Below, in pieces: positions 10,877 to 17,925 of a DNA stretch of 33,131 nucleotides (position 1 is its first letter; each line of letters begins with the position of its first letter). The DNA is taken from positions 1 to 33,131 of the forward strand of contig JAGYIN010000014.1 in the NCBI GenBank assembly GCA_018402665.1, read 5' to 3'. This DNA comes from Schleiferiaceae bacterium. Its GTDB lineage: Bacteria; Bacteroidota; Bacteroidia; Flavobacteriales; Schleiferiaceae. Both the position numbers and the translations under genes were made by a program. The notes under the pieces were generated by a model, which saw only the letters and a program-made list of their open reading frames with translations, did not search any database and was not told the origin of the DNA.

Positions 10877-11419
10877 ATGAAACAGAAATACGCAATCTTA
10901 CCCATTTTAGTTTTCGCTTTATATTCTTGTGATCCCGTAGAGCCTACAGATCCAAAGGAAGAGGAGTTGATTACGACCGTTTCGGTAGAATTAATTGGCC
11001 CAAATTCAACAGCGGTTCTTTCCTATATAGATCTTGATGGCGATGGTGGTGCAGCCCCCGTTTTTTCTGTTGATTCCTTGGATGTGAATACAGTTTATTC
11101 CGGGAGTATAACTCTATTAAACGAAAGTGAAACGCCCGCTGAGGACATCACGGCTGAGATTTTTGATGAAGCTGATGATCACCAATTTTTCTTCACGAGC
11201 AACGGAGGAACGAACTATTCCTACACTGATCAAGATAATAACGGGTATCCCGTTGGCTTGACTTTTGAACTTACAACGGGCGATCCCGGTACTGAAGAGT
11301 TTACATTTATCTTGAGACATTTACCGGCTAAAGACGCGGACGGTGTGATGGACGGAGATATTACCAATGCTGGAGGAGAGACCGATATCCAGGTGGTCTT
11401 TGATGTCATTGTTCACTAG
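10877..11419 (+). CDS. Lipoprotein partner of a TonB receptor, putative metal binding
   Basis: This 180-residue protein has a lipoprotein signal ending at Cys18 and a short acidic linker, then a beta-rich domain. It belongs to a Flavobacteriia family that I recall being labelled type 1 periplasmic binding fold superfamily protein, though no function is proven. Acidic loops such as DLDGDGG (about 52-58) and the conserved Asp/Gly-rich C-terminal segment (about 150-172) could hold metal ions. It is the first gene of an operon with a TonB receptor (overlapping by 17 bp) and a Fur/Zur-type repressor. It may pass metal to the receptor at the outer membrane. Confidence 0.75.
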   Translation: MKQKYAILPILVFALYSCDPVEPTDPKEEELITTVSVELIGPNSTAVLSYIDLDGDGGAAPVFSVDSLDVNTVYSGSITLLNESETPAEDITAEIFDEADDHQFFFTSNGGTNYSYTDQDNNGYPVGLTFELTTGDPGTEEFTFILRHLPAKDADGVMDGDITNAGGETDIQVVFDVIVH

Positions 11420-13700
11420 GTTCCAACTCCTCGTTTTGATCAGTTTTGGGTGGGTGCTAACCGTGTCTGCCCAAAGTTGTGTCTACACGTTGCAAGGCTC
11501 TGTGTTGGACGCGCATGACCTCCAGCCTATGGAGAACGTGAGTATTTTTGTACAAGAGATCGGTCGTGAAGTTTGGACGAATGATAAAGGTCAATTCGAA
11601 TTTAAGCAACTGTGCAGTGATGAGTACCATTTGGTTATTCAGCATGTAGGGTGTCCTTCACAGCGGCTGCTTCTATCGTTTCATAGCGATACGGCCGTTA
11701 CAATTTTCATGGAGCACCATCAGAACATGCTGCATGAGGTAGATGTACACGATCAACATGATGAGGAATTGGATGATCATAGGTTAGGAAAGATAGCTTT
11801 GGACGAAAATGGTCACAAATCTTTAGCGGCCGCTATAGAATTGGTCCAGGGAGCGAGCATGATTTCGAACGGTTCAGATATCGGCCTCCCCATTTTGCAG
11901 GGGCTTTCTGGAAATCGAGTAGCTATTGTTAACAATGGTTTTGTCCACATGGGGCAGCAATGGGGTGCAGATCATAGTCCTGAAATAGATCTAAATGCAA
12001 CAGGCGAGTTGCGTGTGATTTCCGGATCGGGAACCATAAGATATCCAGGCAGTCATATGGGGAATTTAATACTTCTAGAACCTAATCCCATTCCCTTCGA
12101 TCCGCATCTGCACGGTAGATGGACATCAGTTTTAGAATCAAATGGCCTCGGCACTACTATTAATGCGCAGATTTACAAGGGGTTAAATAATTACCAATGG
12201 CGGTTAGGTACTACATTCAAGAAAATGGGCGATCGCAGGGCACCAGCGTATTTTTTGAACAATACAGGAACACAGCAAAACCACCTTAATGCAGAGTTTC
12301 GGAGACAGTGGAGTTCAGGTGCGGAATGGCAGCTTTATTACACCTATTTCGGTGCAGAATTCGGGATTTTGAGGGGTAGTCATATTGGAAATTTAAGCGA
12401 TCTTAGGGATGCTTTCGATCGTCCCGTTCCGTTTTACACGGATACCATTTTTTCGTATCGCATTGAGTCCCCGCGTCAATCTGTAAACCACCACCAATTA
12501 AAATCTGCCGTAAGTTTAAATCTAACGAGCGGTAAACTAGAGTGGAATACAGCCGTTCAGCGCAACCTTCGTCGAGAGTTTGATGTTCGACGCAACGGTC
12601 GGAGCGATCAACCTGCACTAAGTTTACTACAGTATAATTTTCAGAACGAATTGGTATGGTCAAAGAATCGTGCTTTAGAAATGGGTTACCAATTCTCAGG
12701 AAAGAATAATTGGAACTTACCCGAGACCGGTATTTTGCCGCTACTTCCGAATTATACCTCCTTTACTAATGGCATTTATCTTACGAAAAAACATACCAGA
12801 GGTCCTCTAAAGTTGGAGACTGGAGCGCGTTATGATTTTCAATTGCGAAATGTAGTCCGGTTAACGAATTCGCAGCCTCGGGAGGTCGAGCGTTTTCAGG
12901 ATGTCTATCATAATGTTGCCGTGCTCAGTCGCGCTACAATCATGCTGCATAAAAAATGGCAGCTTTTAGGGGAATTGGCCTATAAACAGCGACCGCCAGA
13001 AATTAACGAGTTGTACTCTTTTGGACTGCATCAAGGCGTAAGTGGAATTGAAGAGGGGTCGATTGATTTGAAGCAAGAAAAGGGATTAAAAGGTGCACTT
13101 CATTTACGCGGACTATTGGGAAAGGACCTGCATGTAGATTTAAATGGCTACGTGCACCAATTCGAAAACTATATTTTTTTACAACCTCAACAAGATTATC
13201 GACTCACTATTCGAGGGGCTTTTCCCGTCTTTACCTATGAGCAATGTGATGCAATCTTATACGGTAGTGACTTAAAGGTGAGTTATATGCTCAGTGGCCG
13301 CTGGAAATTGGAATCGAATTGGTCTTATATTTATGCACGTAACCTCACGGATGCACTCCCACTCAACTTTATCCCTCCATTAAACGGTTCTAATACGGTA
13401 CATTACGAGATTTCTGAATGGCAAAATTGGCGTAATCTTAGACTTTCGATGAATCATCGTTACGTCGCGGAGCAGTGGAATTGGGACCCGAGGCTTGATT
13501 TAGTCGCTCCGCCTCCCGCATACCAACTTTTGAACATTTCATTCGGAGGTACCTTTAAAGGCATAAAAAATGAGCCTCAAATTCGAATAGGTATAGAGAA
13601 TTTAGCTAACGTGAAGTACCGCGATTATTTGAACCGTCAGCGTTATTTTGCAGATGCGACGGGAAGAAACCTCACTTTAAGTTGGCTTCAACATTTTTAA
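11403..13700 (+). CDS. TonB-dependent receptor, probable zinc/metal uptake
   Basis: This 765-residue outer-membrane transporter has a signal peptide (about 1-23), a carboxypeptidase-regulatory-like domain (about 26-105), a His/Asp/Glu-rich segment (about 105-138), a plug domain with GNRVAIVNNGF (170-180) followed by a GQQWGADHSPEID stretch, and a 22-strand-type barrel ending in an aromatic Phe. The His-rich segment before the plug suggests capture of zinc or a similar ion, as in ZnuD-like receptors. I chose the ATG at 11403 because it begins a good signal peptide. The longer frame from 11367 is inside the lipoprotein gene. The stop codon is one base before the repressor ATG, supporting metal-controlled expression. 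Confidence 0.88.
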   Translation: MSLFTRFQLLVLISFGWVLTVSAQSCVYTLQGSVLDAHDLQPMENVSIFVQEIGREVWTNDKGQFEFKQLCSDEYHLVIQHVGCPSQRLLLSFHSDTAVTIFMEHHQNMLHEVDVHDQHDEELDDHRLGKIALDENGHKSLAAAIELVQGASMISNGSDIGLPILQGLSGNRVAIVNNGFVHMGQQWGADHSPEIDLNATGELRVISGSGTIRYPGSHMGNLILLEPNPIPFDPHLHGRWTSVLESNGLGTTINAQIYKGLNNYQWRLGTTFKKMGDRRAPAYFLNNTGTQQNHLNAEFRRQWSSGAEWQLYYTYFGAEFGILRGSHIGNLSDLRDAFDRPVPFYTDTIFSYRIESPRQSVNHHQLKSAVSLNLTSGKLEWNTAVQRNLRREFDVRRNGRSDQPALSLLQYNFQNELVWSKNRALEMGYQFSGKNNWNLPETGILPLLPNYTSFTNGIYLTKKHTRGPLKLETGARYDFQLRNVVRLTNSQPREVERFQDVYHNVAVLSRATIMLHKKWQLLGELAYKQRPPEINELYSFGLHQGVSGIEEGSIDLKQEKGLKGALHLRGLLGKDLHVDLNGYVHQFENYIFLQPQQDYRLTIRGAFPVFTYEQCDAILYGSDLKVSYMLSGRWKLESNWSYIYARNLTDALPLNFIPPLNGSNTVHYEISEWQNWRNLRLSMNHRYVAEQWNWDPRLDLVAPPPAYQLLNISFGGTFKGIKNEPQIRIGIENLANVKYRDYLNRQRYFADATGRNLTLSWLQHF

Positions 13701-13701
13701 A

Positions 13702-14115
13702 ATGACCAGTGAAAAAACACTAAAGCAGTTCAATCTGCGCATTACAAAAATTCGTATCGCGGTATTGGATGCATTAAGCGCATCACCAGCAGCGCTCTCT
13801 TACAGCGTCTTACAGGATGCTTTAAGTGCATTTGATCGTACAACGCTTTACCGTACACTACTCACGTTAACAGACCATGGACTGATCCATAAAGCTTATG
13901 AAGAGAATGGGGAGTCCTACTATGCGCGTTGCTTCGGTTGTACGGGTCAAGATCATCATCACGAGCACCTCCACTTAAAATGTTCTTCTTGCGGCGGTGT
14001 AGAATGCCTAGAAATCTCAGAGGAATTGAAATTGAATTTAGCCCAATTGCCCTTTGAAGAAATCAACATCTCCGCCAAAGGTCCTTGCAGTTCGTGTGCT
14101 ATTCAAGGGGGTTAA
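13702..14115 (+). CDS. zur: Fur-family metal-responsive repressor, Zur-like
   Basis: This 137-residue regulator has an N-terminal winged helix with DRTTLYRTL (45-53), the Fur-family recognition helix, and a C-terminal dimer domain. Cys94, Cys97, Cys129 and Cys132 form the two CxxC pairs of the structural zinc site. The His cluster at 85-91 (HHHEHLH) matches the regulatory metal site. Sequence alone does not firmly separate Zur from Fur. The Zur reading comes from the neighbouring His-rich receptor and absence of siderophore genes. The gene follows the receptor by one base, and its end overlaps the convergent AMP nucleosidase gene by 4 bp. Confidence 0.75.
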   Translation: MTSEKTLKQFNLRITKIRIAVLDALSASPAALSYSVLQDALSAFDRTTLYRTLLTLTDHGLIHKAYEENGESYYARCFGCTGQDHHHEHLHLKCSSCGGVECLEISEELKLNLAQLPFEEINISAKGPCSSCAIQGG

Positions 14116-14986: not shown

Positions 14987-15934
14987 ATGAAGAAAATCTA
15001 TTTCGCATTAAGTGCATTATTGTTTGCTACTGCAGCCCATTCACAGAGCAAGACTGTGATTTTAAATGTTGAACACAGAATTGGCACGGATACTTGTGCC
15101 ACAGGTGTTGAGGGCATAAATAATTTAGGCAATCCATTTAAACTCAATAGGATCCAGTATTATATGGATGAAATTATTCTAGTGCATGACGGCGGTTCCT
15201 CGGATACTGCAGTGGCATTGGCATTAGTAGACGGCTTCAATGAAACCAGCTTAACCTTGGGAACATTTACCGTTGACTCGCTGGAAAGTATTCGTTTTGC
15301 CATAGGGGTGAATGCCTCTTTGAACCATTTGGATCCAACGACCTATAATCCTAACCATCCATTAGCACCGAAAAGTCCTTCCATGCATTGGGGTTGGACA
15401 GCAGGATACCGCTTTATTGCAGCGGAGGGTTTAGGCGGTAGTACTTTTAGCCAAATCTTCGAATTCCACGGTCTAGGCGATGGAAATTACGCGCATTTAA
15501 CCGTGCCTACCTCAGGTACGCTCATTGCTTCTGATACGCTATTGATTACGATAACGGCAGATTATAATGAGCTTTTCCGGGGAATAAATTTAGGTTCAGG
15601 TCCTATCAGTCATGGCGAAACTGGCGGGGCAGCCCAGACCTTATACAACATCAATAATTACGTTTTCACTTCGAGCGAAGGCAATGCAGCTATGGGATTA
15701 ACTGAGAAGATACCTGTTGTAGGCATTTATCCTAATCCATCAAATGGCCAATTCATCATTGAATCTTCCCAGGCAGGGACTTACGAAGTGTTGGACATGC
15801 TCGGAAGAAATATTATGAACGGCACATTAGCCCCAGGAACGAACAATGTGAACCTTAATGCAAATGGTTTGTTCTTATTGTGTATCAATTCTTTAGAAGG
15901 AGAAACTACCGTACACAAACTGCATGTTAAATAG
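14987..15934 (+). CDS. MbnP-like copper-binding-type protein with a T9SS sorting domain
   Basis: This 315-residue secreted protein has a signal peptide (about 1-20), an MbnP-family domain (about 22-215) and a C-terminal T9SS type A sorting domain (about 245-315, opening with YPNPSNGQF at 248-256). The MbnP domain carries the MHWGW segment (133-137) and other conserved His (30, 67, 114, 124, 161, 170). In methanotroph MbnP a Trp is oxidised to kynurenine by the di-heme enzyme MbnH and the protein binds copper. Trp135 or Trp137 are the natural candidates here, by inference. The type IX tail means it is probably exported across the outer membrane. It overlaps the first MauG-like gene by 11 bp. 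Confidence 0.85.
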   Translation: MKKIYFALSALLFATAAHSQSKTVILNVEHRIGTDTCATGVEGINNLGNPFKLNRIQYYMDEIILVHDGGSSDTAVALALVDGFNETSLTLGTFTVDSLESIRFAIGVNASLNHLDPTTYNPNHPLAPKSPSMHWGWTAGYRFIAAEGLGGSTFSQIFEFHGLGDGNYAHLTVPTSGTLIASDTLLITITADYNELFRGINLGSGPISHGETGGAAQTLYNINNYVFTSSEGNAAMGLTEKIPVVGIYPNPSNGQFIIESSQAGTYEVLDMLGRNIMNGTLAPGTNNVNLNANGLFLLCINSLEGETTVHKLHVK

Positions 15935-16988
15935 AGTATTCTTATTAACCTTCTCGATAGTATTAGCTGTTGGTTGCGCAAAAGCTCCAGAGCCGATATG
16001 GGATGCAACACCATATACCTTAGCGTTCGGTGGTCTGCCTGAACCAGAGTTACCTGCAGATAATCCGCTCACAGAGCAGGGTGTAAAACTAGGGCGCATG
16101 TTATTTTATGAAACCCGTCTATCCGGGGATAACTCTATGGCTTGCGCATCCTGTCACAAGCAAGAAAACGCATTTACAGATACGAGTAGATTTTCAGTAG
16201 GAATTGATGGCTTAGAAGGACACCGTCAGGCGATGAGTGCTGTAAATATGCTTTGGAATACGAACGGCTATTTTTGGGACGGTCGTGTACAAAAGCTTAG
16301 AGATCAGAGTATCATGCCGATCCAGGATCCTCTAGAAATGAACGAAACCATGGAGAATGTGGTAGAGAAACTGGAGCAGGATACCCTGTACACGCATCAA
16401 TTTTTCAGAGCCTTCGGCAGTGAAAATATATCGTCATACCGCATAGGCTTAGCGCTAGAACAGTTTATGAATTCCATAGTTTCTTACCGCAGCAAATATG
16501 ATTTGTACCTGGAAGGCACAGCAACCTTTACGGAGGAAGAGGAGCTCGGTATGGATTTATTTTTTAATGAATACAATCCCTTTTTCCCTGAGACCTCGGG
16601 AGCGGATTGTGGTCATTGCCATGGCGGGAAAAACTTCAGTTCGCAGGAGTACATGAATAATGGATTAGACAGTATTTATAATGATGATGGTCGCTATGAG
16701 GTGACGGGCCTAGAATCGGATCGTGGGGCGATGAAAGTAACGACACTAAGAAATATTGAGCTAACTCCACCATACATGCATGACGGTCGTTTCAAAACCT
16801 TAGAGGAAGTGATCGATCACTATAATGAAGGTTTGCACAATAATGCTTCGCTTAATCCTGCCCTTGCCATGACTATGGGAACGGGTTTAATGCTCACCGA
16901 TACCGATAAGAGTGCTTTACTTGCCTTTCTGAAGACCTTAACAGACACGAGTTTGATTCAAGACTCTCATTATGCTTCGCCTTTCTAA
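15924..16988 (+). CDS. MauG/MbnH-like di-heme cytochrome c peroxidase, lipoprotein
   Basis: This 354-residue periplasmic lipoprotein (lipobox Cys18) has two heme c sites: Cys74-x-x-Cys77-His78 and Cys229-x-x-Cys232-His233. It has the family's FWDGR segment (117-121) and PYMHDG (283-288) with the probable distal ligand Met285. The family includes bacterial cytochrome c peroxidase, MauG and MbnH. The adjacent MbnP-like gene, overlapped by 11 bp, points to an MbnH-like role of oxidising its partner. The Met at the distal position is peroxidase-like, so a plain peroxide reductase remains possible. Confidence 0.88.
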   Translation: MLNRVFLLTFSIVLAVGCAKAPEPIWDATPYTLAFGGLPEPELPADNPLTEQGVKLGRMLFYETRLSGDNSMACASCHKQENAFTDTSRFSVGIDGLEGHRQAMSAVNMLWNTNGYFWDGRVQKLRDQSIMPIQDPLEMNETMENVVEKLEQDTLYTHQFFRAFGSENISSYRIGLALEQFMNSIVSYRSKYDLYLEGTATFTEEEELGMDLFFNEYNPFFPETSGADCGHCHGGKNFSSQEYMNNGLDSIYNDDGRYEVTGLESDRGAMKVTTLRNIELTPPYMHDGRFKTLEEVIDHYNEGLHNNASLNPALAMTMGTGLMLTDTDKSALLAFLKTLTDTSLIQDSHYASPF

Positions 16989-17925
16989 ATTTCTGTTCAT
17001 CGGTTTAATTTTGGGTTCATGCGTGCCTGATGAGTCCGTTTTTGAGGGACTTAATACTACTTATCCGGTACTAGAATATCCCGCAGATAATCCCAACAAT
17101 GCTGCTGCGGCATCTTTAGGTGAACGACTTTTTTTTGATCCTATATTGAGTGTAGACTCAAGTATTAGCTGCGGTTCTTGCCATAAGCCAGAACTGGGTT
17201 TCGCGACAAACGACAGGGTTACGCCCGGTGTAGGTGGAGTTTTAGGGAAACGTAACAGTCCATCTTTACTAAACGTTGGTTTCCAGCCTTATTTCATGCG
17301 TGAAGGCGGGGTCCCGTCTTTGGAGATGCAAGTCTTAGTCCCATTAGGTGATGCGACTGAAATGGCACATAACGTGGTAGACGCCGTTCGACGATTGAAT
17401 CGAAATACCAGCTACAGAAATGAATTTCTTACGGTCTATGGGGATACGGCCTCTGCTTTTTTATTGGTTCGAGCATTAGCGAATTTCGAACGTACGCTCG
17501 TTGACTTTGATGCTCCTTTTGATCATTTTATTCAAGGCGATGCGACTGCACTGAGCAACGAGGCCATCAAAGGCGGTAAATTATTTTACGGAAAAGCAGC
17601 ATGCGTGCAGTGTCATTCAGGTGTTTTACTTACTGACTTCGGTTTCGCAAACAATGGAACGGCCATAGTGGATTCAACAGACTACGGTCGAGAATTATTG
17701 ACGAATGAAAGTGGTGATAGGTATGTTTTTAAGGTTCCATCACTGCGAAAGGTGCAGATCACAGCTCCTTACATGCACGATGGCTCAGTGGCCACCCTTG
17801 CTGATGTTGTTGAGCAGTACAATACTGGCGGGGCAAACCATTCGTATACCGATTCTAGAATAGAACCCTTAGGTTTATCTGGTAGCGAGAAAGCGCAATT
17901 GGTCGCATTTTTGGAGGCACTATAA
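16972..17925 (+). CDS. Second MauG/MbnH-like di-heme lipoprotein
   Basis: This 317-residue lipoprotein (lipobox Cys17) has two heme c sites, Cys67-x-x-Cys70-His71 and Cys211-x-x-Cys214-His215, and PYMHDG (266-271) with Met268. It differs from the first paralogue at the usually conserved WDGR segment, which reads FMREGG (108-113), so the site around the first heme may differ. It overlaps the upstream gene by 17 bp and is the last of the trio. The convergent cytidine deaminase gene ends 5 bp away, with no terminator between them. Confidence 0.88.
   Translation: MLRLSKFLFIGLILGSCVPDESVFEGLNTTYPVLEYPADNPNNAAAASLGERLFFDPILSVDSSISCGSCHKPELGFATNDRVTPGVGGVLGKRNSPSLLNVGFQPYFMREGGVPSLEMQVLVPLGDATEMAHNVVDAVRRLNRNTSYRNEFLTVYGDTASAFLLVRALANFERTLVDFDAPFDHFIQGDATALSNEAIKGGKLFYGKAACVQCHSGVLLTDFGFANNGTAIVDSTDYGRELLTNESGDRYVFKVPSLRKVQITAPYMHDGSVATLADVVEQYNTGGANHSYTDSRIEPLGLSGSEKAQLVAFLEAL

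Follow-up and report, generated by a model that had tools for sequence, protein, structure and literature searches.

In Methylosinus trichosporium OB3b, the protein MbnP (7l6g) is paired with an adjacent di-haem enzyme, MbnH, which we take to be the solved structure 6e1c. MbnH is reported, by Manesis and others in 2021, to oxidise MbnP at the first of the two Trp in its WxW motif. The roles of mbnPH are still termed unknown or speculative in the available text of a later paper (PMC9601215). Comparable by description are MopE of Methylococcus capsulatus and CorA of Methylomicrobium album, surface or secreted proteins of methanotrophs whose copper(I) site consists of two His and a Trp-derived kynurenine; their co-transcribed di-haem neighbours, SACCP and CorB respectively, one partner in each case, have been proposed to make the kynurenine (PMC3912023, PMC3423442, PMC3621798; accessible portions). 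According to the available part of PMC3912023, the kynurenine of CorA is a second-sphere ligand, and the accessible text of these papers mentions no transport by the type IX secretion system (T9SS). Here we describe, on a contig of 33,131 nucleotides from a Schleiferiaceae bacterium (assembly GCA_018402665.1, contig JAGYIN010000014.1; this whole stretch is called the window), a gene for an MbnP with a T9SS sorting tail, P, followed by genes for two different di-haem enzymes, H1 and H2. The locus is probably an MbnP-MbnH system remodelled for export by the T9SS and including another di-haem enzyme, a divergent one. The literature searched holds no earlier description of this combination: queries on MbnP or kynurenine/copper with type IX secretion or Bacteroidota returned no paper, bioRxiv preprints altogether and much of the subscription literature lying outside the search, and none described a T9SS-exported MbnP, in agreement with an earlier note made from this DNA.

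P resembles the M. trichosporium protein in its core fold, in its WxW motif and in having next to it a di-haem enzyme from the superfamily of MbnH. It differs in its T9SS tail, in additional conserved His and in being accompanied by two enzyme types, one of which lacks the bridging Trp discussed below. The gene arrangement that the earlier note had read here, an MbnP-like protein with a T9SS tail and two overlapping MauG/MbnH-type genes, was borne out by Pfam, by the fold of P and by the overlaps of 11 bp, then 17 bp, that join P, H1 and H2 in series. Conservation, locus and alignment counts for tailed MbnPs are based on the best 80 of 355 relatives of P confirmed in the species-genome collection, a set leaning towards the query; with the P of the window this makes 81 proteins. 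The features of P are:

14987..15934, + strand: P, T9SS-tailed MbnP of 315 aa, Pfam MbnP and Por_Secre_tail above cut-off, with matching fold
15044..15682, + strand: MbnP core domain of P, residues 20-232
15716..15931, + strand: T9SS type A sorting domain of P, residues 244-315
15386..15397, + strand: H134-W135-G136-W137 motif, W135 being the predicted kynurenine; invariant in 81/81 tailed MbnPs
15074..15076, + strand: His30, candidate metal ligand; 81/81 tailed versus 13/41 ordinary MbnPs
15467..15469, + strand: His161, candidate metal ligand; 81/81 tailed versus 39/41 ordinary MbnPs
15611..15613, + strand: His209, candidate metal ligand; 81/81 tailed versus 15/41 ordinary MbnPs, the alignment being less sure here

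With the Pfam MbnP model (PF20243), P scores 81 bits for a curated cut-off of 27; with the equivalog model MbnP_like_WxW (TIGR04052) it reaches 38.3 bits, under the 140-bit cut-off. By these scores P is related to the narrower TIGR04052 group, yet lies outside it. Sequence searches from P (phmmer to E 1, a profile to E 0.01) did not reach the solved MbnP; only the fold comparison did. The tail has the fold of T9SS C-terminal domains (8glk, 8gl6, 5ag8), as in the sorting domains of the type A substrates NucA, RemA and RgpB, the cargo of P being an MbnP domain. Both Pfam domains were found in 81/81 proteins (E 0.001); these tails, together with the tail fold, rule out a chance resemblance. The genome of the window also encodes SprA and the sortase PorU, and 39 of its 41 T9SS tail matches exceed the cut-off. 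P has a signal peptide, judged by eye, and no lipobox Cys; an aligned lipobox Cys is present in 30/41 ordinary MbnPs versus 0/81 tailed ones.

The tailed proteins also differ from ordinary MbnPs around the WxW motif. The residue just before its first Trp is a His in 81/81 tailed and 0/41 ordinary MbnPs, which mostly carry Phe or Tyr there, and His124 is found in 76/81 versus 0/41. W137 and Y141 are likewise invariant (81/81). His134 is probably older than the tail, since 15 of the 21 untailed relatives read have HWxW.

Among 295 genomes sampled from the class to which the window belongs, 218 have a PF20243 match. A profile of tailed MbnPs matched in 84/395 genomes at E 1e-15; the best score was at least 240 bits in 35 of those, 34 of these 35 matches extending into the tail, and eleven further genomes gave about 130-160 bits. 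Taxa among the 355 relatives include Schleiferiaceae, Cryomorphaceae, Crocinitomix, Saprospiraceae, Chitinophagales, Aureispira and Edaphocola; cultivated bacteria that carry the cassette are recorded as Edaphocola flava HME-24 and Aureispira sp. CCB-QB1. In a tree built from the core only, leaving out the tail, the tailed MbnPs form one clade of 69 rows (support 100/99), or, with five more distant long tailed MbnPs, a clade with support 100/100; it is separate from ordinary MbnPs, and untailed relatives are nearest to it. A repeated gain of the tail is thus unsupported, with the bootstrap flagged as not fully settled. A cassette at L135 is assigned to Phycisphaerales, outside Bacteroidota, owing to either wrong binning or transfer. 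One assembly (L090 and L100) and the genome of L119 each have two tailed MbnPs, with H1 next to one of them and H2 next to the other.

A survey for MbnP-T9SS fusions beside paired MauG genes, as the earlier note had suggested, found both enzyme types directly downstream of P, in either order, in 52 of 70 readable loci (those among the 80 in which 2150 bases or more follow P): 26 read P-H1-H2, 24 P-H2-H1, and in 2 the enzymes lie in a run that is longer or has a broken frame. The remainder carry H1 only (9), H2 only (7) or neither (2). Outside the genus of the window the figures are 40/54 with both enzymes, 9 with H1 only, 3 with H2 only and 2 with none. Intergenic gaps are short across all 80 loci: 125/137 are at most 20 bases and 62 are overlaps. 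Four of the 18 exceptions to the two-enzyme layout are loci of the genus without H1. For the other 14, all outside the genus, both enzyme types occur somewhere in 10/12 genomes searched, judged by best match, with 30/52 matches read; G439 and G442, the two genomes without both types, contain matches that are cut or were left unread. Each enzyme type adjoins its own copy of P in two of the genomes. An apparent absence of an enzyme in other genomes may come from incomplete assemblies.

Ordinary MbnPs were compared at 40 loci, hand-picked among the matches listed, one per genome, with frames under about 300 aa. A single di-haem gene lies within about 4 kb in 33 of them and none in seven, one of which sits at a contig end; no locus has two complete ones. 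Two of the 33 enzyme genes are short, one is upstream, and one locus has an extra 102-aa fragment 3.6 kb off. At the level of genomes, an H2 match of at least 450 bits was obtained in 32/35 genomes with a tailed MbnP versus 1/360 others; the Fisher value for this contrast, 1.7e-42, is overstated, the genomes being related. The searches for P and for H2 behind it drew equal numbers of genomes under identical handles. The tailed MbnP and two di-haem genes form a conserved module.

The two enzymes of the window have the following features:

15924..16988, + strand: H1, MbnH/MauG-type di-haem predicted lipoprotein of 354 aa, CCP_MauG 184.5 bits
16275..16277, + strand: Trp118 of H1, bridging Trp (MauG Trp93 position); W in 63/63 H1
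16821..16823, + strand: Tyr300 of H1, axial-ligand position; Y in 63/63 H1, Met in 1iqc
16972..17925, + strand: H2, MauG/MbnH-type di-haem predicted lipoprotein of 317 aa with zero Trp, CCP_MauG 153 bits
17299..17301, + strand: Arg110 of H2, replacing the bridging Trp; R in 64 and K in 1 of 65 H2
17818..17820, + strand: Tyr283 of H2, axial-ligand position; Y in 65/65 H2

Both carry a CCP_MauG domain and two CxxCH motifs. Neither reaches the equivalog-level MbnH model TIGR04039 (cut-off 362.85 bits; H1 247.9, H2 199.8). The best solved match of H1 is the di-haem enzyme 6e1c (E 2.4e-55). At the axial-ligand position MauG has Tyr and classical peroxidases have Met; two c-type haems and the Tyr are shared by H1, H2, MauG and BthA. 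We presume that the bridging column is that of MauG Trp93, as the MauG numbering (Trp93, Gln103, Pro107, Glu113) fits the spacing of our enzyme alignment, which holds 165 rows after a length and haem-motif filter, including references and own-genome paralogues. Every H1 and H2 of this alignment conserves the Gln, the Pro, the Glu and the Tyr. The Trp93 column is Trp in all H1 and in 28/31 ordinary MbnP partners, and Arg or Lys in all H2. A second Trp column is conserved in 60/63 H1 and 28/32 ordinary partners; it is Tyr in 55/65 H2. H2 has no conserved Trp, and 13/65, that of the window among them, have none beyond the first 25 residues. In MauG, Trp93 is located midway between the haems, and BthA has Ser257 there instead of Trp and still a stable bis-Fe(IV) state (PMC6405878, available text). 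H2 therefore need not be inactive. It differs from both MauG and BthA in its Arg or Lys bridge within the cassettes and in adjoining an MbnP.

In the enzyme tree (146 rows, 10 near-duplicate loci left out; quick search with SH-aLRT only), H2 forms one clade (support 100) beside 27 ordinary MbnP partners of Bacteroidia (support 91). H1 forms a separate clade (support 98) outside the ordinary partners, with 52 of its 53 rows being H1 and the other a third enzyme in L134. A recent duplication is ruled out by these separate clades and by the 32% identity of H1 and H2. Judged by their residues and phylogeny, the two are different kinds of enzyme, not equivalent partners. The earlier idea of two haem enzymes modifying P stood in part: two lipoprotein-like di-haem genes are conserved beside it, but they need not both modify P, H2 having lost the bridging Trp and H1 being missing or decayed at some loci (below). 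Two further proposals failed. H2-like enzymes are not exclusive to tailed MbnPs: some are found next to untailed ones, and their bridge residue there is W, F, M, R or K. Nor is Arg at the H2 bridge a strict rule, as eight H2 relatives unlinked to P or oppositely oriented have Phe, and a single H2, that of L186, which lies in series with a tailed MbnP, has Ser.

From the architecture, conservation, residue differences and losses, which are established at the level of sequence, we infer the most likely course of oxidation, copper binding and export, and what H1 and H2 would each contribute. P, H1 and H2 would be co-translated; P would enter the periplasm through its signal peptide and fold there, and the di-haem lipoproteins would oxidise W135, the first Trp of WGW, to kynurenine. 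The choice of W135 follows the Trp that we assume to be oxidised in the M. trichosporium protein. The periplasm is taken as the site of oxidation, since both enzymes have the look of lipoproteins of that compartment and T9SS cargo folds before it crosses the outer membrane. The kynurenine and invariant His (candidates H30, H134, H161 and H209) would constitute a copper(I) site. Folded and modified, P would then leave through SprA, PorU would cut off the tail, and P would bind copper outside the cell, on the surface or released, much as MopE and CorA do. H2, whose clade stands beside the ordinary Bacteroidia MbnP partners, would be the committed partner in the genus of the window; H1 would be an additional enzyme of separate origin, which assists or introduces another modification and which lineages can do without. 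To this co-translated maturation-and-export module, taken as a whole, we give slightly better than even credence.

Several observations weigh against this explanation and are taken here with the alternatives on which they bear. H1 is present in 17/22 readable loci of the group of the window (one cut by a contig end) and deleted or decayed in the other 5, with P and H2 retained; the 22 include the window and two loci outside the genus, and losses were counted from L040-L058, as L071-L089 largely repeat these assemblies. The loss is a clean removal in L044, an internal deletion in L048 and L056, the latter retaining both ends of H1 but neither haem motif, and a decayed scar in L052 and L058. None of the conserved His, Trp or Tyr of P is missing at these loci, and the two haem motifs of H2 are present. 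Searches of the five genomes yielded short remnants and no complete H1 more than 44% identical. Since H1 was lost at five loci that kept P and H2, it is, on this sequence record, either dispensable in the genus or replaceable by an unlinked paralogue of 42-44% identity. No loss of H2 was seen in 21 loci where it is at least partly readable. Two contigs are cut short: in G317 the contig ends after P, and H1 and an H2-like gene lie on another contig; in G312 it ends at an H1 fragment.

These losses, and the position of the H2 clade rather than that of H1 next to ordinary Bacteroidia partners, are what would be expected if H2 alone modified P and H1 were an operon-borne periplasmic peroxidase, for example for peroxide removal, with no part in maturation. 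We consider this unlikely: among the loci read, H1 is a neighbour of P in either gene order, it is the sole enzyme directly downstream of P in nine readable loci from outside the genus, and it has the MauG-type Tyr ligand rather than Met and 6e1c as its best solved match.

The second set of points concerns the nature of H2. Its best solved match is the classical di-haem peroxidase 1iqc (E 2.9e-40), 6e1c coming third, and it is without the Trp to which a major part in sharing charge from haem to haem is ascribed. In the tree, 6e1c itself, the enzyme of M. trichosporium, grouped with the peroxidase references and apart from H1, H2 and the ordinary partners, possibly by a false long-branch join. 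If the haem proteins were electron-transfer or peroxidase partners making no covalent change, P would be a surface redox or adhesion protein, and an H2 without conserved Trp that resembles a classical peroxidase would fit. This seems distinctly improbable to us, given the invariant WxW and the precedents of MbnP-MbnH and of the kynurenine-copper sites of MopE and CorA. For H1 and H2 themselves, identity as classical cytochrome c peroxidases is disfavoured by the axial Tyr in all 128, yet H2 best matches one.

The last set concerns the link between tail and enzymes. The H2 of the window scores 429.6 bits, under the 450-bit threshold used above, and at a looser limit (E 1e-102) H2 matches 35/35 genomes with a tailed MbnP but also 71/360 others. 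Untailed HWxW MbnPs exist, mostly with one H2-like enzyme, and two di-haem genes in series occur at 3/15 untailed-MbnP loci (L268, L282, L283); two enzymes are therefore not tied to the tail. Two of the sets of loci read, one of 18 loci and one of 14 genome loci, were hand-picked from match lists. In L282 and L283 one enzyme reads FWDGR and the other FKDGG, so that a Trp/basic pair exists without a T9SS tail. The best match of H2 to a classical peroxidase and the three untailed loci with two enzymes slightly weaken the maturation-and-export explanation.

A division of labour was also considered, in which H1 and H2 carry out separate modifications, one after the other or of different kinds, for instance at W135 and at W137 or Y141, giving a residue or cross-link beyond simple kynurenine. 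Two enzyme classes with opposite bridging residues are kept together, an extra invariant His134 stands by W135, and W137 and Y141 are invariant; the same WxW, on the other hand, occurs in ordinary MbnP pairs with one enzyme, and genus loci without H1 keep the same P residues, which leaves such chemistry doubtful. Extended to Bacteroidia at large, H1 and H2 might form a two-enzyme maturation line that oxidises the tailed MbnP at two steps or sites and yields a His-rich copper centre, with a residue other than plain kynurenine or a cross-link, finished before T9SS export. We regard this as a speculative and rather unlikely proposal; if true, a surface copper centre would be built entirely before secretion.

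The kynurenine-copper proteins of the papers cited above come from methanotrophs, and P extends a conserved, probably exported form to many Bacteroidia. The module suggests how these bacteria may handle copper outside the cell, and raises the question whether proteins first matured by oxidation in the periplasm can be cargo of the type IX system. It keeps two different di-haem enzymes with one likely substrate, and the natural deletion lines, which lost H1 and kept H2, let the role of each be asked.

The copper setting was seen only in relatives. A small Cys/His-rich protein of the NCBI family HYC_CC_PP, often upstream of the tailed MbnP (for example L101:6500-6919), occurs in 38/61 stretches around P outside the genus versus 0/40 around ordinary MbnPs, for stretches of up to 7 kb on each side of P and 4 kb for ordinary MbnPs and with a profile made from nine of the 61 loci. 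It was not found in the genome of the window or in the genus loci, so that no copper setting is seen there, and it also lies beside one untailed MbnP (L271). Neighbour scans covered 110 of 200 selected proteins: 22/110 match NCBI's own HYC_CC_PP model, and CopZ-type and multicopper-oxidase models gave 4 matches each. A literature search on the family name found nothing. In the window, a lipoprotein, a TonB receptor (heme/copper-like, below cut-offs) and a Fur-family regulator lie in series at 10877-14115. These three stay near P in part of the genus only, and the receptor and Fur-like gene were therefore set aside as module parts. No methanobactin gene was found among the seven window proteins scanned. 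Promoter and terminator scans (7 found versus 6.9 expected; 5 versus 2.5 expected) gave nothing taken as meaningful.

Elsewhere in the same genome, an ordinary MbnP-MbnH pair (L069:6870-8755, contig C10) has an enzyme with Leu at the bridging Trp position and, upstream, a gene for a small protein rich in Cys (CNGKC). At L002:1414-2878 (contig C1) a lipoprotein MbnP that has WxW stands with no di-haem gene nearby; directly before it lies a look-alike lipoprotein, recognised by eye, without WxW and missed by the MbnP searches. Two more di-haem MauG-type genes (L067:2467-3612 and L068:3839-5020) have no MbnP match in the stretches read, and a T9SS-tailed protein of 605 aa is encoded two genes away from that of L067.

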